Virus record (IMG/VR): IMGVR_UViG_3300025869_000046
Coordinates: 1-34,039 of that record
From: a virus
Direction: 5' to 3' (one strand)
Length of the DNA: 34,039 bases
A model generated the notes under the pieces. That model had not been told where the DNA came from and did no database searches. It worked only from the letters and a program-made list of their open reading frames with translations. The translations under genes and the position numbers were made by a program. Positions 10,968-33,877 of the stretch are shown one piece after another (the stretch's first letter is position 1; each line of letters starts with the position of its first letter).

Positions 10968-11314
10968 TACTCGAAATAAGTTAAATCAGCTGTTACGGAA
11001 AATAATCTTCCTACTCTGTTGTGACTTTTTCTTAAACTGGTAATTTCAAAATATTTATTTTCTGAATTCCAATAAAGTCTATCAGAAGCTTTTAAGTCGA
11101 CAGTACCAGTAAAGTAACCTGTCCAATTTTCAATAACTGTATTCCTACCATCTCTATTTTCTGTTTCACTAAGAAACATTAACCTACAAGGTATATTAGT
11201 ACTTGAATCTGTCCATATATCTGAATCTAAACCACGAGTATCTATATTTGAACCTGTAGTTCTTTGAATAGTAACTCTATGTATTAATAAACGTTCGGGA
11301 TATGAGCCTGCCAT
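10967..11314 (-). CDS. Head closure / head-tail joining protein
   Basis: The 115-residue protein has the layout of the SPP1 gp16-like / Phage_H_T_join family: HRVTIQR near the N-terminus, a middle IPCRLMF strand, LKASDRLYWN and YFEITSLR strands, and a final strand (LFSVTADLTYFE). These small beta-barrel proteins plug the portal-adaptor channel after DNA packaging and form the tail docking site. It comes two genes after the adaptor, with an unusual zinc-ribbon gene between them. The stop overlaps the start of the following 1203-aa gene by one base (TAATG). Length fits the family. Confidence 0.82.
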   Translation of the reverse strand: MAGSYPERLLIHRVTIQRTTGSNIDTRGLDSDIWTDSSTNIPCRLMFLSETENRDGRNTVIENWTGYFTGTVDLKASDRLYWNSENKYFEITSLRKSHNRVGRLFSVTADLTYFE

Positions 11315-20155: not shown

Positions 20156-20458
20156 TTAGGATAATTCAGTAGGGTCGTACATGCTGTATTTAACAGTGAT
20201 TTCTTCTCCAGATTCAATGTCTCTTAAAAAATATAAATATCTTACTCTTTGGACTTCTACAATTTTTGCATTAGGTTCTTCACTATGATTGATAAAACCA
20301 CCTAAAGGCGTTCTATATAATTTTGTAGTTATAGGGTCTTCTATGTGAGTAATACCAGCTTTAACACCTTTTTCTATTGTACCTGTTGAAAATAGTCCTA
20401 ATCCGTCAATGTTAGATTCATTAATGGTAAGAAATTCGGGTAAAGGTCTATATTTCAT
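20156..20458 (-). CDS. SET-domain protein, putative lysine methyltransferase
   Basis: In 100 residues the minimal SET fold motifs appear in order: GLGLFSTGTIEKG (19-31, SAM-binding start of the fold), GGFINHSEEPNAKI (53-66, the NHSxxPN pseudoknot motif) and a final YFLRDIESGEEITVKY (76-91, the GEEIT.dY motif with the catalytic-site Tyr). No pre- or post-SET cysteines are present. SET proteins transfer methyl groups from SAM to lysines; the target is unknown. It overlaps the upstream glycosyltransferase gene by 11 nt and precedes the FmdB-like and HNH genes, so it is made with late proteins and could modify virion or host proteins. Confidence 0.85.
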   Translation of the reverse strand: MKYRPLPEFLTINESNIDGLGLFSTGTIEKGVKAGITHIEDPITTKLYRTPLGGFINHSEEPNAKIVEVQRVRYLYFLRDIESGEEITVKYSMYDPTELS

Positions 20459-21431
20459 TATTAAACCAATCTGAAGGTATATGATAGTTATGTAAAGATT
20501 TCTCTTTAAAATCTACATTCATCCATTTTTCATATCTTTTTATAGTTTCTTGTAGTTTGGGGTCTTCATAGTATCTAATAAAGTTTTGCATTTCTTTTTG
20601 CTCTAACATATCTTTTTCTTCAGGACTAACAAAGTGATGCCAATAAGCCCTTCCTCCACCTTCAGAGCTTATCTCTGTGTTGTACATGTGACCAACAATC
20701 GGTTGTGTATTTGGATAAACAAGTTCCCAACCATCATTGAGCAATTTAAATGTTTTACACATATCTTCTTCCATCATCAGCATTTCTGGGTCTTCATCAT
20801 AAAGAAAGTTTTCACCACTAAAAGAAAAGTTGTAACTAAATTTACCAGTAGGGATTAACTTTCTTTTATCTTCAATAGTATCTTTTACCATCCAGGGTAA
20901 GCAATATTGCCAAATTGGTTGTGAAAGAAAAGGATAAAGTTCTAAGTCCCATTCTTCTTCCCATCCAATGTATGGATATAGATTCTTGTTATCTATTAAA
21001 ACTCTTTCTTCGTTTTTATAAGCATACTTAGAAGGATATGCAGTAATAATTGATTTCTTATTACCAGTCAAGTTAATAGCGTCTTCATAAAGCCAAGATA
21101 ATTTCTCATCCCAATTTTTAGAAAACTTAGTATGGCTATCAATAGAAAGAACGAAGTCTTCTCCATCATATAATTCAGAGACACCTTTCCTAGCCTTACC
21201 AGTACCAATCTTATCTAATCTATTATCTTCGTTTATATAATCAAAGTATCCTTTAATGTTTGCACCAAAGGTAGAGATAAGAGTTGAGAGTTTTTGTTCT
21301 TCTTCTGGTGATGATGATAAAAATCTAATTCCAAAATGTATGTCGTGTGATTTAGCATTTTCAAATGCATCAAAAACTGTAGGTAGTAATTCAGTATCGT
21401 GCATTGTTGGCATTGCTATAAATATTGACAT
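20448..21431 (-). CDS. GlcNAc-type glycosyltransferase (GT-A fold, PF11397-like)
   Basis: The 327-residue protein opens with IFIAMPTMHDTELLPTVFDA. It then has the family's GTGKARKGVSELYDGEDFVL (76-95) and SIDSHTKFSKNWDEKL (96-111), where DSH (98-100) replaces the usual DXD metal motif of GT-A enzymes. A later SGENFLYDEDPEM and MEEDMCKTFKLLNDGW match the acceptor half, and a distal PIVGHMYN His follows. The family includes Skp1 GlcNAc-transferases (GT60), and phage members are common. The sugar and acceptor cannot be read from sequence; phage DNA, virion protein or host surface glycan are all possible. It is the first gene of a tight late set including SET, FmdB, HNH and TerL. Confidence 0.87.
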   Translation of the reverse strand: MSIFIAMPTMHDTELLPTVFDAFENAKSHDIHFGIRFLSSSPEEEQKLSTLISTFGANIKGYFDYINEDNRLDKIGTGKARKGVSELYDGEDFVLSIDSHTKFSKNWDEKLSWLYEDAINLTGNKKSIITAYPSKYAYKNEERVLIDNKNLYPYIGWEEEWDLELYPFLSQPIWQYCLPWMVKDTIEDKRKLIPTGKFSYNFSFSGENFLYDEDPEMLMMEEDMCKTFKLLNDGWELVYPNTQPIVGHMYNTEISSEGGGRAYWHHFVSPEEKDMLEQKEMQNFIRYYEDPKLQETIKRYEKWMNVDFKEKSLHNYHIPSDWFNNEI

Positions 21432-23929: not shown

Positions 23930-24117
23930 TTAAGCATTTACTATCTAGTACTTGTATACGTATCTGAAATGTCTAGTCAGCTATAACGATACGTATTTCA
24001 AGTATAACCAGAGCAGGACTGGTATATAACCTGCATATCATAGAGCCACCCAAACACTAGCGGGTGGCTGAATGATATTAGTTGTCTGACTACATGGTCA
24101 GGCTGGTAATACCTTTA

Positions 24118-24159
24118 ACCCATGACGGTCTTCAATCAAGTTCGACTCTTGATATGGGT
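24118..24159 (+). ncRNA. tRNA-like minihelix (acceptor plus T-arm only)
   Basis: ACCCAT (24118-24123) pairs with ATGGGT (24154-24159), and ATCAAG (24135-24140) pairs with CTTGAT (24148-24153) around TTCGACT, a correct T-loop. The 3' strand is continuous over 12 nt, the same length as the acceptor/T-stem stack of tRNA. Only 11 nt replace the D and anticodon arms. The 3' end is ACA. Confidence 0.62.
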
Positions 24160-24599
24160 ACAGCGTCCATCCACTGCTTGCAGTGTGGTGGAGCGGGTCA
24201 TCTGTCTCAAAAAACAGAGAGGGTAACAACCTAGTAACTGCAGTAATGTAGTGAACAATTAGTTTATAGCGTGATAGTCTCACGTGGTTGATTCAAGAAC
24301 ATCCGCAGATGTTTAATTGAAAGGTTGAGAGAAGCCGTAGTAATCTTGAATCGTAAAGCTCCAAACTTCCACTAATAGACTATACATGTATTGCGTCCTA
24401 ATCTATTGGACTGACGCCCCAAGCTGGTTACTGTAGAGTGCCAGTGGTTGGAAAACCTACAGTGTGTGTGGCTCTATCTCCTTAGAGCGTGACACATTGG
24501 GAGACACCCTCCCAGATATCAAGTCCCAAGCTTGATATCAAACAACCTAGATGAATCTTGCCGAGAGGGAAGTGTGCTGTTCAGTCAGCTTAGTCGAAG

Positions 24600-25860: not shown

Positions 25861-26027
25861 CCTCTTGCGAGGTGCGGATTACTGAGAGCATGTTTAATGC
25901 CTTTCTCGTGCTCTGAGTACATCCTCATTTTAGGCTTTTCACCAACGTACGGAAATTCAAGACTTACCGTATCGGCGGGGGATAACTGTATCCAAACACA
26001 TTTTGGACCAGAACCCCCTGCTGATAC
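25861..26027 (+). other. Structured leader before the 40-aa gene
   Basis: This gene-free stretch (25846-26056) has CCTC/GAGG (25861-25872) and GAGCATG/CGTGCTC (25886-25892 region and its partner near 25906-25914). The longest fold is nested: GTATC/GATAC (25969-25973, 26023-26027), GGGGG/CCCCC (25977-25981, 26014-26018), TCCAAA/TTTGGA (25991-25996, 26002-26007). GGAT (25980-25983) can instead pair with ATCC (25990-25993), so a switch between two folds is possible. It ends 30 nt before the next start. Confidence 0.6.
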
Positions 26028-26461: not shown

Positions 26462-26533
26462 ATGCCAAGTATCGATACCAAAGATATAGTGCGTAATCCT
26501 AACGCATTAGAAGCTATGTACGATATAAGCTAA
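26462..26533 (+). CDS. 23-aa micropeptide
   Basis: ATG at 26462 has a strong AAAGGAG seven bases before it. The 23 codons encode MPSIDTKDIVRNPNALEAMY plus DIS. The peptide is polar with one short helix. The AGC TAA end belongs to the conserved spacer element that follows. Expression is supported by the ribosome site and the operon pattern; it may instead act as a leader or coupling ORF. Confidence 0.5.
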   Translation: MPSIDTKDIVRNPNALEAMYDIS

Positions 26534-26596
26534 TAGCTCGGACTCCATGGTGCAACTTGAACTGTGGAGTCTAAGGTATTAACACAAGGTTAGTAC
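26528..26596 (+). repeat. Two-hairpin intercistronic element, copy 1
   Basis: Begins AGCTAATAGCTCGGA, where AGC is the last codon and TAA the stop of the micropeptide. Stem 1: GGACTCCA (26540-26547) with TGGAGTCT (26565-26572). Outer TAATA (26531-26535) can pair with TATTA (26577-26581). Stem 2: GTATTAAC (26576-26583) with GTTAGTAC (26589-26596). The ribosome site follows. Confidence 0.85.
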
Positions 26597-26618
26597 GACT
26601 AAAAGAAGGAGGGCATTT

Positions 26619-26798
26619 ATGCCTAAATTAAAAGATACTACCAAGGTTATCTTGACAAAAGATACAAGAAACGAAATGGTAGAAACATGGAATGCATTCA
26701 ATTTGGATGTTACTCCAGAAGAAAAACGAGAACTTATGGGTCTTGTTTGGTTACCAGCCTATGTCAATTGTTTCTTTAAAGAAATGATAGATAGCTAA
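26619..26798 (+). CDS. 59-aa protein of unknown function
   Basis: ATG at 26619 follows GAAGGAGGG. The protein (MPKLKDTTKVILTKDTRNEM...) is helical with a hydrophobic C-terminal third (LMGLVWLPAYVNCFFKEM) that could contact membrane or a partner. It ends IDS (AGC TAA), leading straight into spacer copy 2. I see no known motif. Confidence 0.65.
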   Translation: MPKLKDTTKVILTKDTRNEMVETWNAFNLDVTPEEKRELMGLVWLPAYVNCFFKEMIDS

Positions 26799-26847
26799 TA
26801 GCTCGGACCCCATTAACAGTGGGGTCTAGGGTATTAACAATGATACC
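26793..26847 (+). repeat. Two-hairpin intercistronic element, copy 2
   Basis: AGCTAATAGCTCGGA start. Stem 1: GGACCCCA (26805-26812) with TGGGGTCT (26820-26827). Outer TAATA/TATTA. Stem 2: GGTAT (26830-26834) with ATACC (26843-26847). Nearly identical to copy 3 outside the stem 1 arms. Confidence 0.88.
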
Positions 26848-26866
26848 ACTAAACAAAGGAGACTAT

Positions 26867-27295
26867 ATGTCCAGATTGGGCAAGTTGCGACTCATTGTCG
26901 CGGAGTTCTTCGGTGTAACAGTTACAGGTTTAACTGATATACAGGAGAAGGTAAAAGATAAAGCACGACTAATTGACAAAGAAATTGACTTCATCTTGAA
27001 AGGTTGGATTAAGTTCCCTCCTTCAGATGACCATTTTACAATTGTCGATAAGGAAGAGCTAAGACCCTCTAATGAAATGATAAATATGTTTGTGATTCAG
27101 GATATTCTTGACGCAATACTTATGTTTGTTCCTAGAGCAAATGATATTGACAGAATATCGTTGACCATGTTAGCCATTATGGTTGGTGGTGACATGTCAT
27201 CAAGTGCATACATAGGAATGATTCCTTATGATGTTGAAGTTAATGTCATAGATGGGGAATGGGTGTCACCATTTTACCAAGGACTAACTAGCTAA
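26867..27295 (+). CDS. 142-aa protein of unknown function
   Basis: Start chosen at ATG 26867, seven bases after AAAGGAG; a longer frame from 26819 would run through the spacer hairpin. The protein (MSRLGKLRLIVAEFFGVTVT...) has an amphipathic N-terminus, a charged helical middle (KVKDKARLIDKEIDFILKGW) and a compact C-terminal half with DRISLTMLAIMVGGDMSS. It ends LTS (AGC TAA). No family recognised. It is one of the larger small genes in the operon. Confidence 0.72.
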   Translation: MSRLGKLRLIVAEFFGVTVTGLTDIQEKVKDKARLIDKEIDFILKGWIKFPPSDDHFTIVDKEELRPSNEMINMFVIQDILDAILMFVPRANDIDRISLTMLAIMVGGDMSSSAYIGMIPYDVEVNVIDGEWVSPFYQGLTS

Positions 27296-27346
27296 TAGCT
27301 CGGAGTTCATTTATGAGGTGAACTCTAGGGTATTAACAATGATACC
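27290..27346 (+). repeat. Two-hairpin intercistronic element, copy 3
   Basis: AGCTAATAGCTCGGA start. Stem 1: GGAGTTCA (27302-27309) with TGAACTCT (27319-27326); both arms differ from copy 2 and still pair. Stem 2: GGTAT (27329-27333) with ATACC (27342-27346). Confidence 0.88.
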
Positions 27347-27364
27347 ACTAAAGAAAGGAGAATA

Positions 27365-27559
27365 ATGGCTAGAGCATTAGAGCTGCTACTAAAAAGACAA
27401 GTAGTAAGTGAAAAGTTCTATAAGGAAACTTATGATGCACCTAATAATATTAAAAGAATTAGTGGTGCAGAACCAATGGATAATCAAAGTTGGGAGATAG
27501 GTTTCTACGAAGGACTGCAATATGCAATAGATATATTAAAGGAGGAAAAATCTAGCTAA
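27365..27559 (+). CDS. 64-aa protein of unknown function
   Basis: ATG at 27365 has AAAGGAG six bases upstream. The protein (MARALELLLKRQVVSEKFYK...) is predicted all-helical and soluble, with an N-terminal basic helix and a C-terminal helix WEIGFYEGLQYAIDILKEEK. Compact helical proteins of this size are common among phage host-takeover factors, but nothing specific is visible. It ends KSS (AGC TAA). Confidence 0.68.
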   Translation: MARALELLLKRQVVSEKFYKETYDAPNNIKRISGAEPMDNQSWEIGFYEGLQYAIDILKEEKSS

Positions 27560-27608
27560 TAGCTCGGAGCTCATTTACGTGAGCTCTAGGGTATTAGGAA
27601 AGTCCTAA
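27554..27608 (+). repeat. Two-hairpin intercistronic element, copy 4
   Basis: AGCTAATAGCTCGGA start. Stem 1: GGAGCTCA (27566-27573) with TGAGCTCT (27580-27587). Stem 2 is different in sequence from copies 2-3 but present: TTAGGA (27594-27599) with TCCTAA (27603-27608). Confidence 0.87.
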
Positions 27609-27630
27609 TTAGCCAATAAAAGGAGAATCT

Positions 27631-27858
27631 ATGATAAAGAGAACCCTAAGACAGAGACTCAGTCATGTAATTGATTGTCTCATCTGTTTAGTTACAGGTA
27701 GATATACTACCGAGTTTGCAGGAATCGAGATTGCTGTAAATGTATATGGAAAGTATCTATACGTTAACGCAGGTGTAATTCAAGAAGCACCAAAGTTCAT
27801 GATGTTCTATCCAGCGACTGACTGTTGTGATGATGTTATTGGGCACGACTTCTCATAG
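27631..27858 (+). CDS. 75-aa protein of unknown function
   Basis: ATG at 27631 follows AAAGGAGAATCT. The protein (MIKRTLRQRLSHVIDCLICL...) starts with a basic amphipathic helix, then strands FAGIEIAVNVYGKYLYVNAG and an FMMFYPATDCCDDVIGHDFS end with a CC pair. It could associate with the membrane through its N-terminus. It ends in Ser (TCA TAG). No family recognised. Confidence 0.66.
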   Translation: MIKRTLRQRLSHVIDCLICLVTGRYTTEFAGIEIAVNVYGKYLYVNAGVIQEAPKFMMFYPATDCCDDVIGHDFS

Positions 27859-27904
27859 CTTAAACAGCTCGGACCTCATTAACAGTGGGGTCTGTGAGAA
27901 TCAC
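27857..27904 (+). repeat. Two-hairpin intercistronic element, copy 5 (degenerate flank)
   Basis: AGCTTAAACAGCTCGGA replaces the usual AGCTAATAGCTCGGA. Stem 1: GGACCTCA (27871-27878) with TGGGGTCT (27886-27893), one G-U. Stem 2: GTGA (27894-27897) with TCAC (27901-27904) around GAA. The AGGGTATTA flank is missing. Confidence 0.8.
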
Positions 27905-27925
27905 TAAAAGATAAGGAGGTATACG

Positions 27926-28090
27926 TTGAAGCAAAAGCGAAACGTTGTCCTGTACCTCAGAATACATAAGATTGTACCCAAGCCATTGTGTACAGGCTTA
28001 TATATAGTTGAATCAAAAATTGCATTTAATGATGTAATGTATGCATTTAACTGTGGCAGATGTTCTGATGTGCATCTCATAGCTAGTTAA
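27926..28090 (+). CDS. 54-aa basic protein of unknown function
   Basis: The start is TTG at 27926, eight bases after AAGGAGG; no ATG is available. The protein (MKQKRNVVLYLRIHKIVPKP...) is basic at the N-terminus and contains a CGRC pair near the C-terminus (FNCGRCSDVH). It ends IAS (AGT TAA). Because start and Cys pair are weak evidence, the gene call relies on the strong ribosome site and the flanking spacer elements. Confidence 0.58.
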   Translation: MKQKRNVVLYLRIHKIVPKPLCTGLYIVESKIAFNDVMYAFNCGRCSDVHLIAS

Positions 28091-28136
28091 ATAGCTCGGA
28101 CCTACTACATGTAGTGGGTCTAGGGTGTTTAACACC
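28081..28136 (+). repeat. Two-hairpin intercistronic element, copy 6
   Basis: AGCTAGTTAAATAGCTCGGA start. Stem 1 is the longest of the set: GGACCTACTAC (28098-28108) with GTAGTGGGTCT (28111-28121). Stem 2: GGTGTT (28124-28129) with AACACC (28131-28136), a changed but paired version of GGTAT/ATACC. Confidence 0.86.
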
Positions 28137-28149
28137 AACATTATAAATA

Positions 28150-28212
28150 TTGAGTTGACGTAGCAGTATTGATAATGTAAAGTAAAAACTACAGATTGAG
28201 CGTCAACCTCAA
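28150..28212 (+). promoter_or_regulatory. Internal promoter inside an inverted repeat, upstream of amidoligase 1
   Basis: TTGACG (28155-28160), a 17-nt spacer and TAAAGT (28178-28183) form a sigma-70-like promoter. The -35 lies in the left arm of an inverted repeat, TTGAGTTGACG (28150-28160) with CGTCAACCTCAA (28201-28212, one bulge). The arms could form an RNA stem in read-through transcripts or bind a regulator. It may give the amidoligase genes their own control. Confidence 0.5.
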
Positions 28213-28239
28213 TCCGTATAACCAATAAAAGGAGAACTA

Positions 28240-30192
28240 TTGAAAGTAACAAACCTTCCCTTCGGGGAAATGGTTCGGCATTTCATTGATGCTTTTAATT
28301 CAGTTAACTTTGACGAGCATGAGGATTCAATCGGATGGTTGTTTCCAAATGACGGCATGGATACTTGGGAATTCCAAGGACTAACTGAAGAAACACAGTA
28401 TCAAATGTTCAGAGATAGAGTAAAAAGTATAATTACAGAGAAGCAATTCTCTAGTTTACATAGCTCTATTGGCATAAATAACGAGTACGTAAATGGTATA
28501 AGTTATCGTGACAAGTTATCTCAAATAGCCGAAGAAGTTATCAATAATACAAAGTGGGAAGTCGAGCATGCAGACGGAACTCTTAGAGTAAGATTCTTTG
28601 AGTTTGTCCCTTCACGTCCTGATATGAAACACTGGTTGTTTCTATCTTATGACGGGGAAGAGAATCGTTATGGCTCAGTGGCTACTCACTATCGTATCGA
28701 GCAACATAAGAACAAGTTGACGGCTGGTGTAAGCATAAGAGAGGAATCTCGTACAAGAAGGCAATGTCCTACCTGTAGAAGCGTATGCAATCCTAATACT
28801 GAAATGTTCACTGTTGAACAGAGTCATGGATACGGTAATGTCAGACCACATAAAGTATGTGTACTATGTACAGTATACTTTCATGACTTCTACGACTTAG
28901 CTACAGGCAGATTTAGATATGTCGGTAGTGATGTAGATGTAGTGGACTTTGACATTGACGATATCAGAACTCAAGATAGAAGAAATCTAAACAGATTCGA
29001 CTTGATTGATTTCATATCTGACAAAGTTGGTACCTTACCATTTATGCCTAATGTAAGGCATGAAGATTACAGTTATGAACTTAACTGGAGTTATTGGACA
29101 ACCAATACAAATGGTGAAGTAGTAGCCATGCCAAGTGACCGTTATGGTAATCATATACAACGTAACAGAGCACATGAATCTAAACAGTATGCCAAACAAG
29201 GTATGCCGTTAGGAATGGAGCTTGAAGTGCAGTATAGGAAAACAGAACATAACCTAAGCAAAGGTATATCTACTTTCCTTAATCCTCTACATAAGGACTT
29301 TCCTTATGGAAATGAGAGATTGAGAACTATCAACAATCAGTTAGCTGTCGGTACATACGACACCTCAACTGGTAGACATGGTATGGAATTCAAGTTCCAA
29401 CCTATGTCATGGGAGTTCTTGAAAGGATTGCCAGAAGAGTTCTTTGCTACACTGCAGGAAAACTTCAGAGGATATCACGCTAAACGTTGTGGTATTCATT
29501 TGAATATACCTAAGTCAGTGCTAAGCAGTGGACAGTACTGGTTCTTTATAGCATTTCACAATATGGCTATGTTTAACTTTGAACATACGCCAGAAGGTGA
29601 TTACCATAATTTGCTAGGTGACATCTACCAAAGAGTAGATGTTGAGTATGCAAAATGGATGTATCTTAGTGAACCAACATTCCATACAGAAACTAATCCT
29701 TGTTGTGAGGCTCATCCACAAGATGAGTTCACTAATCAACAAAGAGTAGCTTGTGCAACTGCTAGATACCTAAACAGGTATAGAAGTAGTCCACAAAGGA
29801 GTTGTTGGATTAACATAGAGAATCCAGGCAGACTAGAAGTAAGAGCCTTTTCTTCAAATACAATGAAGGATAGACTTATTAAAAACTTTCAGTTTATGGA
29901 AGCTCTATTACTTTATTCTGATGCTGTAACTTACAACTATCAATCAAGTGTGTCGGGCAATGGTATTGCTTTAAATATCTTAGACTCGCTCACTATTGAT
30001 GAGTTTCAGTTAGTAAGCAAAATGCTAGATGAAGACATGTTCCTTAGATGGTATGTAATGTCTGGACTTGACAACAAGTATCCAGAATTGACACGTTATC
30101 TAAACAGAACAGGTCATCTGAATAGAATACAAACACAGATTGTAGATACGTCAGACCATTCTGACTTACAAACTGTTGTTAACTATAGCTAA
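28240..30192 (+). CDS. Amidoligase-like protein 1 (COOH-NH2 ligase, GS fold) with N-terminal extension
   Basis: The start is TTG at 28240 after AAAGGAG. In the 650-residue protein the C-terminal half has the Amidoligase_2 (PF12224) pattern: GMPLGMELEVQYRK (321-334), GRHGMEFKFQPMSW (378-391), CGIHLNIPKS (417-426) and GRLEVRAFSSN (530-540). These correspond to the ExE metal site, the G.E...P loop, the H.H-like segment and the ExR site of glutamine-synthetase-like ligases. The usual HVH is here IHLN. The N-terminal 320 residues are unusual and hold a zinc-finger-like group (CPTCRSVC near 176-183, CVLC near 207-210). Such ligases use ATP to form amide or peptide bonds. Its neighbours encode a GATase and a second ligase. 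Confidence 0.82.
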   Translation: MKVTNLPFGEMVRHFIDAFNSVNFDEHEDSIGWLFPNDGMDTWEFQGLTEETQYQMFRDRVKSIITEKQFSSLHSSIGINNEYVNGISYRDKLSQIAEEVINNTKWEVEHADGTLRVRFFEFVPSRPDMKHWLFLSYDGEENRYGSVATHYRIEQHKNKLTAGVSIREESRTRRQCPTCRSVCNPNTEMFTVEQSHGYGNVRPHKVCVLCTVYFHDFYDLATGRFRYVGSDVDVVDFDIDDIRTQDRRNLNRFDLIDFISDKVGTLPFMPNVRHEDYSYELNWSYWTTNTNGEVVAMPSDRYGNHIQRNRAHESKQYAKQGMPLGMELEVQYRKTEHNLSKGISTFLNPLHKDFPYGNERLRTINNQLAVGTYDTSTGRHGMEFKFQPMSWEFLKGLPEEFFATLQENFRGYHAKRCGIHLNIPKSVLSSGQYWFFIAFHNMAMFNFEHTPEGDYHNLLGDIYQRVDVEYAKWMYLSEPTFHTETNPCCEAHPQDEFTNQQRVACATARYLNRYRSSPQRSCWINIENPGRLEVRAFSSNTMKDRLIKNFQFMEALLLYSDAVTYNYQSSVSGNGIALNILDSLTIDEFQLVSKMLDEDMFLRWYVMSGLDNKYPELTRYLNRTGHLNRIQTQIVDTSDHSDLQTVVNYS

Positions 30193-30285
30193 CTAGATAG
30201 CTTGAGCCCATCTGAAATATGGTGGGCTCTGTGGTATCTAATAGTAGATACTGGGTTAATAGTACGATACCCAAAAAATTCGTAC
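30187..30285 (+). repeat. Multi-hairpin intercistronic element, copy 7
   Basis: AGCTAACTAGATAGCTTGAGCC start (AGC TAA is the end of the upstream gene). Stem 1: GAGCCCA (30204-30210) with TGGGCTC (30223-30229). Stem 2: GTATCTA (30234-30240) with TAGATAC (30245-30251). A further stem is either GGGT/ACCC (30253-30256, 30269-30272) or GTACGA/TCGTAC (30262-30267, 30280-30285). Confidence 0.82.
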
Positions 30286-30306
30286 AGTAAATAAGGAGGT
30301 ACACAA

Positions 30307-31398
30307 TTGTGTATTATAGCTAGTGTTCCAGCAGGAGCACAAGTAACCGAAGCCCAACTTGATGAGATGTGGTCACGCAACTCTGATGGTGGTGGGATAG
30401 CATACTTTGACAATGGTCAAATTGTCACAGAAAAGTCTATGGATGCGAAAGTATTCATAGCTAGAGTTCTTGAAGTTCAAGAAAAGTATGGTAATAGAGA
30501 CATATTAGTTCATATGAGAATAGCAACTCATGGTTCTATATGCCTTGAAAACAACCACCCATTTCAAGTTAACAAGAATACAGTCATGGCACACAATGGT
30601 ATTTTGCCTGAGGCATTTATACCACCTGTCAAGTCTGACTTGTCTGATACAAGGTTCTTCATAGAATACTTTATGAAGCATATCCCTGTATCAAAACTTG
30701 ATGACCCTTACTTCTGTGACATGGTTGACGGTATGATTAACCAGGGTTACGGAAATAAGTTGGTGTTCATGACATCAGCTCCAACTAAGTACGATACTTA
30801 CATTATCGGTGATTATCACGGTACTTGGGACAAGGGTATATGGTTCTCCAATGATAGTTACAAATCACGTAAGTGGTTAGGAATCAATCATAACCAAGGA
30901 GGACTTACCAAAGTTGGTTCATCTCTAGTGTCTGATAATTGCGATATTATCAACATAGATGATGACTTCGACATGACCAATGATAACTCAATCAATGACT
31001 GGATGACATGGTATCCAGATGTTTGGAGAGAGTTTCAAGAGCTTGGTGTTGTCAGCTTGGAAGAGTTGACGACATCATTCCGAGTCAAGTTGACTTGGGA
31101 TGGTCTAGTTTGTACCGAATGTGGTAACAAGGTGGAAGGTGTTTACAGTAGATATTGTGAAATAGACTGTGAATCAATAGCTCCAGTTTTGGACTGGTGT
31201 TATGAAAACCTTAACATGGACGATAGAGACATAGACATGCTGATGCACGAGGAAATGTTAATACAGATTCCAAGTGCTGAGGTTATAGACCAACCTAAAT
31301 TGTTTGATAACAAGGAAGGCGTCTATAAGAATAGCAAAAAATCTAAGACTAAAAAGACTAACAAGTCTACTAAGTCTAAGAAAAAAGCTAACAAGTAA
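30307..31398 (+). CDS. Class II glutamine amidotransferase (GATase, Ntn hydrolase)
   Basis: The start is TTG at 30307 after AAGGAGG, giving MCII; removal of Met exposes Cys2, the nucleophile of class II GATases. Supporting motifs: NSDGGGIAYF (25-34), LVHMRIATHG (67-76), ENNHPFQ and VMAHNGIL (81-100, the Asn-Gly oxyanion pair) and SDTRFFIEYF (113-122). The enzyme frees ammonia from glutamine and passes it to a partner. A C-terminal zinc-ribbon-like group (Cys269/272/284/288) and a lysine-rich tail (339-363) are additions. It lies between the two amidoligase genes, so the ammonia or an amide product probably goes to them. Its substrate is unknown. Confidence 0.9.
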   Translation: MCIIASVPAGAQVTEAQLDEMWSRNSDGGGIAYFDNGQIVTEKSMDAKVFIARVLEVQEKYGNRDILVHMRIATHGSICLENNHPFQVNKNTVMAHNGILPEAFIPPVKSDLSDTRFFIEYFMKHIPVSKLDDPYFCDMVDGMINQGYGNKLVFMTSAPTKYDTYIIGDYHGTWDKGIWFSNDSYKSRKWLGINHNQGGLTKVGSSLVSDNCDIINIDDDFDMTNDNSINDWMTWYPDVWREFQELGVVSLEELTTSFRVKLTWDGLVCTECGNKVEGVYSRYCEIDCESIAPVLDWCYENLNMDDRDIDMLMHEEMLIQIPSAEVIDQPKLFDNKEGVYKNSKKSKTKKTNKSTKSKKKANK

Positions 31399-31403
31399 TA
31401 ACA

Positions 31404-31441
31404 GGTAATCAAGTCCTGCCCTACGGGGCAGGCAGATTATC
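31404..31441 (+). repeat. Intercistronic hairpin, copy 8 (variant)
   Basis: GGTAATC (31404-31410) with GATTATC (31435-31441) encloses CCTGCCC (31415-31421) and GGGCAGG (31426-31432) around a TACG loop, a stable C(UACG)G tetraloop. The two-part outer/inner stem matches the family, but the AGCTAATAGCTCGGA flank is absent; the upstream protein also ends in Lys rather than Ser. Confidence 0.82.
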
Positions 31442-31459
31442 AATACTAAAAGGAGAAAT

Positions 31460-32038
31460 ATGAGTAAAGCAATACCTAAGTTCCTTCATGAAACATTGAA
31501 GGATACTATAGGAAAACTTAAAAATATGATATTTGCTACATCTGATGTAGTCAACATACATATTACATTTGAGGCAGAATGGGACGAACGTTGGATTGTG
31601 TCACAAAGAAGAACCTACCGACACAGGGAGAGTGTTCAGTTATATGACATTCTCGAATATTGTGACAAGTATGGTGAGTGGTTGCAAGCTATGCAAAGTA
31701 ATGACACAAGTCAAGCAATGGATATTGCTGATGCGTGCATTGAAGAGTATGAAGACTATTTCCAAGATAATGCCAGAGATTATGGTGATATCATGGATGA
31801 GGAAAATTATGACGAAGATTTCGACGAAGTAATTGACTCAACTAATAATGTCTTCATACGTGGCACTTCTCAACCACCTTCCATTAGAAGCGAGTGGGAA
31901 AAGTTCAGCAGAGTAACGGATACGTCTGGTGAGGCTTGGTACCTACATCCTTTGAGATGGATATTTGGTCTCAGACCAACACCTCTGACTCCCCAACAAC
32001 AGAGTAACTGGTTGGATAATGAATCAGAATCAAGCTAA
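31460..32038 (+). CDS. 192-aa acidic protein of the amidoligase cluster, unknown function
   Basis: ATG at 31460 has AAAGGAG upstream. The first 80 residues look folded (helical MSKAIPKFLHETLKDTIGKL, strand VVNIHITFEAEWDERW). The middle is very acidic (DACIEEYEDYFQDNARDYGD, then DEENYDEDFDEVIDS). A polar Pro-rich end follows (LRPTPLTPQQQSNW). I do not recognise a family. Lying between GATase and amidoligase 2, it is a candidate substrate, carrier or scaffold for those enzymes, which is inference from position only. It ends ESS (AGC TAA). Confidence 0.68.
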   Translation: MSKAIPKFLHETLKDTIGKLKNMIFATSDVVNIHITFEAEWDERWIVSQRRTYRHRESVQLYDILEYCDKYGEWLQAMQSNDTSQAMDIADACIEEYEDYFQDNARDYGDIMDEENYDEDFDEVIDSTNNVFIRGTSQPPSIRSEWEKFSRVTDTSGEAWYLHPLRWIFGLRPTPLTPQQQSNWLDNESESS

Positions 32039-32120
32039 CTAGTAGCTTACCTCCCTCTACTTAATTGTGGGGGGAGACAGGTACTAGTACCCGTTAAGTA
32101 CTACGACGTTACTGTAGTAC
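32033..32120 (+). repeat. Two-hairpin intercistronic element, copy 9
   Basis: AGCTAACTAGTAGCTTACC start, with AGC TAA ending the upstream gene. Outer ACTAGTA (32038-32044) pairs with TACTAGT (32082-32088), enclosing CTCCC/GGGAG (32051-32055, 32072-32076). Stem 2: GTACTAC (32098-32104) with GTAGTAC (32114-32120). Flank diverged, build kept. Confidence 0.8.
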
Positions 32121-32141
32121 ATACTAAATAAAAGGAGAACT

Positions 32142-33176
32142 ATGTGTATTAGCAACTGTTTCAGTAACTTAGACGCTACTGTAACAAACTACTCGCATAA
32201 ACCAGAAGTTAGGTATATACATGCCAAACAATTCGACAGTGAAGAAATTTATTTCGAAGCTATCGATGGAGGCAAAACTGTAGACTACCTACCTTCTATT
32301 GTATCAGCAACTGACGGCTTTATTCCTATGGGAGTAGAGTTGGAAGTAGAACATCTCAGAGATAATGAGCATGGGATTGACAGACACGAAGCAACTGAAG
32401 ATTGTCTTTATGACTTTCATCGTTACTTGCCGTGTCTATTACATGACCGTGATAATGTTATCAAGCAATTAGTAATTGCAAAATCTGATGGTTCGCTGAA
32501 CCATGGTGTTGAGTTCGTTACTCAACCTTTGACATTGGTTGCACATCACCAATTAAATTGGGATGCAACTCAAAACAAAGGGTTCTATGCTTGGAACGCA
32601 AGTACTGCAGGAATGCATGTACATGTACCCAAGTCATATTTCACAACGACTCAAACATGGTTGTTGCTTAAGCTATATCAAAACCTTTGGGCTAATCAAA
32701 GTGATTGGTTCAATTGGATTGCTGGTAGAGGAGAAAACGAATGGGCAAAACGTAATTTGCCACATCGTAACGATGCTACCAACCATTTACTTGCTGTAGC
32801 TGCAACCAAGTATGATGACAGACGAGATAGGTATTCGGCTCTGAGTTTTCAGAACCCATACACTATTGAGCACAGATTCTTTCGTTCTAACATGAATGAA
32901 GATGGTCTCATGAGTAGACTGGAATATATCCAAGCTACTTACGACTTTGTTGTTGTGCTTAGCAGACTAGATAAAACTAGTATGTTTGATGCTATATCTA
33001 ATGGACTAGGTAAACAATTACATATGTTTATCTGTGCTAACTCTACTGAGTATCACACACTAGCCCATAGATTAATGAACACTAATAAGTTTGGTGTTCG
33101 CTCTGGATTCGTTTCCAGAAGTGAAGTAATACCTTCACTAATCAATGGCTTAGAACAAGCCAGAAAGGAGGCTTAA
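32142..33176 (+). CDS. Amidoligase-like protein 2 (COOH-NH2 ligase, GS fold)
   Basis: ATG at 32142 follows AAAGGAG. This 344-residue protein shows the Amidoligase_2 motifs cleanly: MGVELEVEHLRD (63-74), KSDGSLNHGVEFVTQP (114-129), TAGMHVHVPKS (155-165, with HVH) and TIEHRFFRSN (241-250). These residues build the ATP/metal and acid-binding site of the glutamine-synthetase-like fold, so activity is plausible. It is shorter than amidoligase 1 and lacks the zinc-finger N-terminus. Its own N-terminus begins MCISNC, but nothing else suggests an Ntn hydrolase. With the GATase and amidoligase 1 it forms a probable modification pathway acting on a peptide, the cell wall or a phage product. Confidence 0.88.
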   Translation: MCISNCFSNLDATVTNYSHKPEVRYIHAKQFDSEEIYFEAIDGGKTVDYLPSIVSATDGFIPMGVELEVEHLRDNEHGIDRHEATEDCLYDFHRYLPCLLHDRDNVIKQLVIAKSDGSLNHGVEFVTQPLTLVAHHQLNWDATQNKGFYAWNASTAGMHVHVPKSYFTTTQTWLLLKLYQNLWANQSDWFNWIAGRGENEWAKRNLPHRNDATNHLLAVAATKYDDRRDRYSALSFQNPYTIEHRFFRSNMNEDGLMSRLEYIQATYDFVVVLSRLDKTSMFDAISNGLGKQLHMFICANSTEYHTLAHRLMNTNKFGVRSGFVSRSEVIPSLINGLEQARKEA

Positions 33177-33314: not shown

Positions 33315-33322
33315 TCCAATCA

Positions 33323-33377
33323 GCAACCCGTAGCTAGTCGGTAGCATTGGGGGGTTCGATTCCCCCCACGGGTGCTA
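33323..33377 (+). ncRNA. tRNA-like element without an anticodon arm
   Basis: ACCCGT (33326-33331) pairs with ACGGGT (33368-33373). A D-arm-like GCT/AGC (33333-33335, 33343-33345) encloses AGTCGGT, a normal D-loop sequence. A T-arm follows with six G-C pairs (33349-33354, 33362-33367) and the correct loop TTCGATT. Only ATT separates D-arm and T-arm, so there is no anticodon arm. The 3' end reads GCTA rather than CCA. The 12-nt continuous acceptor/T strand equals a tRNA's. It could be a decayed tRNA, a tRNA mimic, or an attP-like tRNA fragment. Confidence 0.68.
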
Positions 33378-33499
33378 AGGAGAAGACCAAATATTGTAGA
33401 GGGAGAATAAAGGATATCCGAATCTACAATTCGGTTTAGACCCACTGTAATGGGAACGCCATACCCTACTAATATGTTTGTCAGGCATATGGGTAGCAC

Positions 33500-33716
33500 G
33501 ACGGGGGAGAGGTGTGTCCAAACTGGATTTCAAGTTTCACCGATTTTTCGCCATCAGGCACCCCTTCATGCTCTCTGGCTTCACTTAATGTTAAAATTTT
33601 ATACTATTATTTTAGGGTATTTCAGTCATAAAAGAGATTCAAGATATTTACCCAAGACTCTCGATGAAAATGAGGTTATATCTTTAGGGTTATTTTTCAG
33701 TAATATGATGTCGAAA
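33500..33716. repeat. Non-coding repeat copy A (two conserved ends)
   Basis: The left block starts GACGGGGGAGAGGTGTGTCC (33500 on) and is followed by AAAC and TGGA. The right block TTTTTCAGTAATATGATGTC ends near 33716. Copy B (33786-33877) has the same two blocks in the same order with a shorter middle. In the left block GGGG, GGTG and TCCA can pair with CCCC, CACC and TGGA downstream. Confidence 0.72.
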
Positions 33717-33785
33717 CTCGCTCCGAACCTGCCATAGCTGTGTTTCCACAATGTATTAAGATATAGATAAATCTATTAAGGGCAA

Positions 33786-33877
33786 GACGGGGGAGAAGTG
33801 TATTCAAAATGAGTTTGAGCATCAGATTTAACATCAACCTACTATATATAGTGTTTTTTCAGTAAAGTGATGTCGAA
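33786..33877. repeat. Non-coding repeat copy B (two conserved ends)
   Basis: Left block GACGGGGGAGAAGTGTATTC, then AAAATGAG; right block TTTTTTCAGTAAAGTGATGT ending in CGAA. Within the left block TTCAAA can pair with TTTGAG, a changed version of the TCCAAA/TTTGGA stem at 25991-26007. The copy lies inside the TATTAAGGG/CCCTTAATA inverted repeat. Confidence 0.72.

Follow-up and report, generated by a model that had tools for sequence, protein, structure and literature searches.

A covarying hairpin between the genes of a phage operon, with one arm shared by two stems

The rightward operon of the viral record IMGVR_UViG_3300025869_000046 (IMG/VR) raises the question of what kind of element fills nearly all the gaps between its genes, and what such an element does there. 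The record was analysed in its entirety (34,039 bases, G+C 36.7%; hereafter, the window). A first-pass annotation, made from the letters alone, had described recurrent spacer repeats with two successive stems, the arms of which vary from copy to copy. We find that the element is a long hairpin with paired arms that change together, that its right arm can pair with either of two partners, and that genes and stem alleles reassort between related phages at this element.

A hairpin in each spacer of the operon

From 26.5 to 32.1 kb there are nine spacers, each with a hairpin of about 21 paired positions. Eight of the nine share one architecture; the hairpin of the ninth (31.4 kb) is similarly built but lacks the conserved letters. 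Below the upper stem lies a lower helix, in which the left arm (L), around the upstream stop codon (typically GCTAATA), pairs with the right arm (R), after AGGG (typically TATTAAC). R is also the 5' arm of another stem, stem 2, the other strand of which is a downstream arm (D). By folding energy, all nine spacers are more stable than their dinucleotide shuffles (z from -1.8 to -5.0), and the 34-kb record contains the 15-mer AGCTAATAGCTCGGA exactly four times but its reversed control not once. Bit scores come from a covariance model built from 28 copies and run with filters off, the matches starting at 26524, 26789, 27286, 27550, 28082, 27855, 30188 and 32033. The copies are as follows.

W1, 26528..26596 (+): lower helix TAATA/TATTA; upper stem GGACTCCA/TGGAGTCT; alternative stem 2 GTATTAAC/GTTAGTAC; 56 bits
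W2, 26793..26847 (+): upper stem GGACCCCA/TGGGGTCT; internal mismatch zone at about 26826-26831; stem 2 GGTATTA/TGATACC; 66 bits
W3, 27290..27346 (+): upper stem GGAGTTCA/TGAACTCT; stem 2 GGTATTA/TGATACC; 68 bits
W4, 27554..27609 (+): upper stem GGAGCTCA/TGAGCTCT; lower helix CTAATA/TATTAG; stem 2 ATTAGG/CCTAAT; 66 bits
W5, 27857..27904 (+): degraded, apparently a hybrid; upper stem GGACCTCA/TGGGGTCT; right arm of the lower helix lost, with a small hairpin GTGAGAATCAC following; 24.5 bits
W6, 28086..28136 (+): lower helix GTTAAATA/TGTTTAAC (8 bp); upper stem GGACCTAC/GTGGGTCT; alternative pairing GGTGTT/AACACC; 56 bits
W7, 30190..30252 (+): diverged; lower helix TAGATA/TATCTA; upper stem GAGCCCA/TGGGCTC; stem 2 GGTATCTA/TAGATACT; 22.4 bits
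W8 spacer, 31404..31441 (+): two-part hairpin GGTAATC/GATTATC and CCTGCCC/GGGGCAGG; no conserved letters, membership uncertain; z -5.0
W9, 32038..32091 (+): diverged; lower helix ACTAGTA/TACTAGT; upper stem CCTCCC/GGGGGG; alternative pairing GGTACTAGTACC; 12.2 bits, E 1

The scores of 56 to 68 bits for W1, W2, W3, W4 and W6 are high by construction, these copies being part of the model seed; W5, W7 and W9 lie outside it. The best match of the model on the minus strand of the whole record scores 11.9 bits, and W9 is accepted as a putative copy on its architecture rather than its score. Re-inspection of the sequence agrees with the earlier description of the repeats and arms, and also with the view that these are not terminators: no T-run follows any copy, and a terminator scan makes no call there. 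An identity as intrinsic terminators, which calls for a U-tract after the stem, was accordingly rejected.

Paired arms change together

In an alignment of the 28 copies, the eight pairs of the upper stem form in all 224 cells, and five of the eight are changed on both sides. The lower helix is paired in 82% of the cells, with changes on both sides in six of its eight pairs, and shifting its partners out of register destroys the pairing. In this helix, 59 cells are changed on both sides; the covariation amounts to 0.430 compared with 0.171 in shuffles, and none of 500 shuffles reaches the score. RNAalifold, unprompted, returns the same structure, including a C-G/U-G step between the conserved mismatches G.G and C.A. 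When 22 further copies outside the model are aligned without structure (MAFFT), the upper stem is 99.4% paired and the lower helix 87.5%, again with no shuffle out of 500 reaching the score, although these copies were found with the model and are therefore biased toward its fold. Their lower arms are often very different, for example, GTCTGCA/TGCAGGC in L133 and GTTGATA/TATCAAC in L153, to which the window adds GTTAAATA/TGTTTAAC. Thus, the covariation of the first stem, noted originally within one genome, extends to copies from other phages, where the arms pair as well, and the covarying pairs of these independent copies support the proposal of a selected RNA structure. Unpaired arms in related phages, named in the first-pass annotation as a refutation, were looked for, and the arms proved to be paired. 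The first stem as originally drawn does pair, but the hairpin continues below it into a lower helix that had been missed, and this stem makes up just the upper half.

Selection acts on the sense RNA. Of 50 copies, 49 close the upper stem with a G-U pair, and U-G pairs are common at other positions. Such pairs would be A.C mismatches on the opposite strand; as the element also keeps the sense orientation at gene ends throughout, the selected structure is assigned to messenger RNA rather than to duplex DNA. The helix spans 21.1 positions (standard deviation 1.9; 40 copies), and the segments UAGCUCGGA and UCUAGGG are nearly fixed across 50 copies from two lineages. The placement relative to the flanking genes is tight: in 24 of 31 copies, the upstream stop codon, often a tandem TAA TAG, starts exactly 8 bases before CGGA, and the start of the next gene mostly lies 58-71 bases past CGGA. 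Because the element extends into the last codon of the upstream gene, the final residue of that gene is serine in 18 cases.

Occurrence in two phage lineages

Relatives of the window were gathered by pattern scans and by searches with aligned terminase and amidotransferase proteins. Single-protein searches (amidoligase, glutamine amidotransferase) retrieved close relatives only, whereas the terminase and amidotransferase alignments yielded the wider set. The covariance search, an approach suggested by the first-pass annotation, finds the element in further phages: of 25 records, 14 have a match at E up to 0.001, as do three more, and there is one match in L125/L084. The remaining 11 of the 25 records have no match to the model; some of these are fragments, and some may carry diverged forms. 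In total, the element is present in at least 18 viral contigs, including a few near-duplicates, with up to seven copies in a single contig.

These contigs fall into two lineages. One consists of the relatives of the window, in which the terminase, where present, is 70-100% identical, or which share the amidotransferase. The other includes L016/L150, L036/L149, L017, L153 and L154, none of which is matched by the window proteins tested, except for WhiB, weakly, in some. The 15-mer AGCTAATAGCTCGGA is found in 25 contigs, in the majority of them probably by chance, and a contig was retained only if its arms pair, if it has several copies or if the model supports it. One candidate, the Bdellovibrionales genome L037, was rejected as an apparent chance match, its arms not being paired in the required form. 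Among sequenced phages, there is no DNA match to the operon or to a single element, and the protein matches of the terminase and amidoligase are remote. Rfam 15 gives no match at the gathering score in the window and none at E up to 1 in the operon.

A right arm with two partners

In stem 2, the best contiguous R:D helix averages 13.8, compared with 11.0 when D is permuted among copies; for L:R, the corresponding values are 12.3 and 9.5, and in neither case do any of 1000 permutations reach the observed average. Thus, R covaries with two partners, L and D, so that the L:R and R:D folds are mutually exclusive. The lowest-energy folds of the window spacers are divided between the two, with stem 2 formed in W1, W2, W3 and W7, and the lower helix in W4, W6 and W9. 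The second stem of the first-pass annotation does covary but is not an independent stem, given that its 5' arm also belongs to the lower helix.

If the RNA is assumed to start right after UCUA, 28 of 35 distinct products have their first pair within 0-2 bases of the 5' end, and in most of the remaining seven the cut position was misplaced by the script. Among copies of the second lineage, there is exactly one unpaired base at the assumed 5' end in 18 of 18. A first pair within three bases combined with an energy of -4.5 or lower is seen in 77% of the products compared with 24% of random stretches from the same loci. Because stem 2 begins 0-2 bases past the internal mismatches, a cut at that place would give the downstream message a 5'-terminal hairpin.

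Genes and stem alleles reassort at the element

The small genes at the start of the operon form a series that differs between relatives.

F5, 26619..26798 (+): small cassette gene, 59 amino acids; its position in the gene order differs among phages
F13, 26867..27295 (+): small cassette gene, 142 amino acids
F14, 27365..27559 (+): small cassette gene, 64 amino acids; 100% identical in L020, where it has another place in the order
F1, 27631..27858 (+): small cassette gene, 75 amino acids
F15, 27926..28090 (+): small cassette gene, 54 amino acids, TTG start

The order is F5, F13, F14, F1, F15 in the window, F6, F13, F28, F1, F15 in L031, F6, F14, F5, F1 in L020, and F6, F1, F5 and others in L013. 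L031 also has a gene together with an element inserted where the window has neither. Stem alleles move separately from both neighbours: the GAGTTC allele comes after F13 or F6 and before F14 or F1, and the allele with the loop TTGTAATGA is found after at least three different genes. In the second lineage, each of three phages has a different gene after the one that ends in EKKRAEL, and three different genes are found ahead of the MPFNWSV gene. W5 itself looks like a hybrid of two alleles, its left half resembling the GGACCTAC allele and its right half the GGACCCC allele in comparison with relatives.

The sequences thus show that genes and stem alleles are exchanged between relatives at the element. 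Homologous recombination within the shared letters would be the simplest mechanism; no tyrosine integrase (PF00589) or resolvase was found in the record, which is possibly incomplete. Recombination boundaries had been proposed earlier as the alternative to RNA processing. The recombination part is borne out by gene order and allele distribution, but the choice between the two is not, because the RNA fold is preserved as well.

A candidate processing site and its alternatives

The reading that best accommodates these observations, and one that we regard as having an even chance of being correct, is that the element is a connector serving RNase III-type processing and message protection, and that it also supplies the homology by which cassettes are exchanged. 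The element probably marks cut sites that turn the long messenger into protected single-gene pieces, and the anatomy of the hairpin makes processing and stabilisation of the RNase III type plausible. The long hairpin would close, L with R, once the upstream gene has been translated, and the host RNase III or a similar double-strand endonuclease would cut at the internal mismatches. The upper stem would stay with the upstream message and cap its 3' end. R, once released, would pair with D to form a short hairpin at the new 5' end, immediately ahead of the ribosome site, and so shield the downstream message, such that the genes of one transcript would become separately protected messages. With the letters that flank the stems being the same in most copies, homologous recombination could swap, insert and delete genes while the connectors stay intact.

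More tentatively, and at somewhat less than even confidence, we would consider the element a new class of RNA: a self-refolding connector of three arms (L, R and D), common to the two lineages, that makes the operon a row of interchangeable cassettes. The cut in L:R would free R to cap the next message via R:D, and every exchange would leave complete 3' and 5' end structures. If so, this would be a clear natural case of message processing and gene exchange using the same sequence, and would explain how phages reshuffle small genes without wrecking their expression. The dual pairing of R permits simple mutational tests, and the element could become a compact gene-separating connector in actinobacterial expression constructs.

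Known systems offer partial precedents. Cleavage at the T7 site R1.1 matures and protects the T7 messages (PMC8708148), and one break stabilises when the 3' end that it leaves is folded, whereas a double break destabilises (PMC6993053). The RNase III sites of the T7 early mRNA (R0.3-R1.3), like the elements described here, are intercistronic hairpins of about two turns with internal mismatches, located at several junctions of one operon; when folded likewise, R0.5 and R1 span 21-22 positions compared with 21.1 here, and R1.1 is, by folding, directly followed by a second hairpin. Unlike the T7 sites, the present elements have freely changing arms, near-fixed flanking letters, stop codons inside the helix and a right arm with a second partner, and they are reshuffled with genes; their cleavage is also predicted from sequence. 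The resemblance appears to be one of function, and membership in the same class is provisional. In the 5' leader of Staphylococcus aureus cspA, an RNase III cut leaves a shorter 5' hairpin and the half-life rises from less than 2.5 to more than 16 min (PMC3386247). That leader also contains a long hairpin, and a shorter 5' hairpin is predicted to begin the cut product here, but cspA has one leader rather than a repeated intercistronic element, and its near-perfect helix is longer (32 bp). In mycobacteria, RNA is stabilised by the 5' stem-loop of DrrS, which increased a reporter about three-fold (PMC5360333).

Several points weigh against RNase III-type processing. We infer the cleavage, the RNA ends and the half-lives, and with them the enzyme and the protection, while the window points to an actinobacterial host by its WhiB-like gene only. 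No RNase III domain was found among the proteins of the record, so that the enzyme would be the host's. A length of about two turns is compatible with RNase III but not specific to it. The near fixation of UAGCUCGGA and UCUAGGG, given that RNase III sites show little conservation of letters, hints at a more specific reader, although it could also come from recent common ancestry or gene conversion. The shuffle and permutation tests, for their part, leave shared ancestry in.

The mutually exclusive L:R and R:D folds would also suit an uncut RNA switch, in which a ribosome terminating in L would free R for D and the change of fold would set downstream reinitiation or the fold of the leader, with no nuclease involved. 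This explanation draws on the stop codon at a fixed place in L and on the variation of single spacers between the two folds at lowest energy. However, most of the predicted structures leave the Shine-Dalgarno sequence unpaired whichever fold is taken, and a switch leaves unexplained both the near-constant two-turn length and the start of stem 2 right past the mismatches; we consider it unlikely, if a serious contender. The near-invariant letters around the C.A mismatch and the G-U pair, kept in 50 copies from both lineages, are what one would expect of a site read by another RNA-binding or processing protein, such as a phage regulator, a cofactor of RNase E/J or a toxin-like endonuclease that recognizes UAGCUCGGA/UCUAGGG. 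Such a site seems quite unlikely, because several diverged copies (at 30190 and 32038, and at 11655 in L121) keep the fold without most of those letters, and no candidate protein was identified.

The insertion and permutation of gene-plus-element cassettes, with arms that vary while the pairing stays, is reminiscent of integron attC sites and could signify an exchange site at the DNA level, where a recombinase or a hairpin in single-stranded DNA moves the cassettes and the structure is selected in DNA. This is highly improbable: owing to the sense-strand G-U pairs the other strand pairs less well, the element is always sense-oriented at stop codons, the record has no tyrosine integrase or resolvase, and the ends of W6 (GTTAAAT...GTTTAAC) are the reverse of the attC order. 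We see hardly any chance that the spacers are promoter-terminator cassettes like the PeSL elements of T4, which would supply each gene with its own terminator and promoter. The shuffling does resemble that of PeSLs, and the W6 spacer has a TTGACG-17-TANNNT box that is kept in two relatives, but no copy has a U-tract or a terminator call, and most spacers, with about 45 bases from stem to start, lack a convincing -35/-10 pair.

Relation to described repeat elements

The element is not a PeSL, an SAS/ESAS or an attC site, nor is it in Rfam, to judge from its sequence. T4-type PeSLs (Arbiol 2010, Comeau 2014) are likewise repeated regulatory stem-loops between small genes that undergo intense shuffling; they are early promoters and terminators, whereas the elements here have no U-tracts and, with one exception, no promoters. 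The exception is in the W6 spacer.

Promoter-like box, 28155..28183 (+): TTGACG-17-TAAAGT; as a scan match, not above chance

The box reads TTGACG-17-TAATAT and TTGACG-17-TACAGT in the two relatives. PeSL identity was rejected: of the nine spacers, one has a promoter-like box that relatives conserve, the scan result is not above chance, and no copy has a terminator-like site. Downstream of the box, at 28190-28218 (+), a leader hairpin GATTGAG/CTCAATC precedes the gene for a 650-amino-acid protein; at the same place L020 has the compensated stem GTTTGAT/ATCAAAC.

The SAS/ESAS of Cluster K mycobacteriophages are also repeated inverted repeats before small non-structural genes of actinobacterial phages. 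ESAS have arms of fixed consensus (17-bp inverted repeats, half-sites) and a 13-bp GGGATAGGAGCCC box, whereas here the arms covary and the element begins at a stop codon. The only match to the box in the record, with two mismatches, is at 11297, outside the operon; with the box absent from the operon and arms that differ from copy to copy and covary, this identity was rejected. For attC, there is no PF00589 match, and the RYYYAAC ... GTTRRRY boxes, where present, are in the opposite order and variable.

Neighbouring genes and other repeats

The leftward genes of the window encode head and packaging proteins (terminase, prohead protease, HK97-type capsid). Beyond the small uncharacterized genes, the rightward operon encodes two amidoligase-like proteins and a class II glutamine amidotransferase, along with other proteins. 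The three are located as follows.

28240..30192 (+): 650 amino acids; a relative of the amidoligase-like protein encoded at 32142 (24% over 237 amino acids)
30307..31398 (+): class II glutamine amidotransferase domain protein (PF13230, 8.8e-10)
32142..33176 (+): amidoligase_2-like protein (PF12224, 3.9e-4, slightly below the cut-off)

The two amidoligase-like proteins and the amidotransferase, encoded together in 28240-33176, also occur as a set in contigs L032-L035 and possibly form a pathway of nucleotide or peptide modification. The leftward cluster includes a SET-domain protein (20156-20458, -; PF00856, 4.9e-9) that adjoins a GlcNAc-type glycosyltransferase (20448-21431, -; PF11397, 2.1e-12).

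The last gene of the rightward operon is immediately followed, at 33322-33376 (+), by a tRNA-like fold with an acceptor helix, a small D-like arm and a T-arm (TTCGATT loop) but no anticodon arm; ARAGORN calls no tRNA at this fold. It is similarly found in L031, L038, L013/L119 and L120, and its arms differ between phages yet pair. A second tRNA-like element without an anticodon arm, ACCCATGACGGTCTT...GTTCGACTCTTGATATGGGT, is located at 24116-24160 (+) and is also present in L143, L041, L047, L048, L065, L084, L125 and L059; it is possibly a punctuation mark for RNase P/Z. Sites resembling a T-arm reach about five per contig (L125/L084), compared with none in shuffled loci, and Rfam gives sub-threshold matches to the tmRNA T-arm in L125. 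Finally, a direct repeat, GACGGGGGAGA(G/A)GTGT(G/A)T(C/T)CAAA.., occurs at 33496-33530 and 33782-33816, with a related copy at 25970 and similar sequence kept in relatives.

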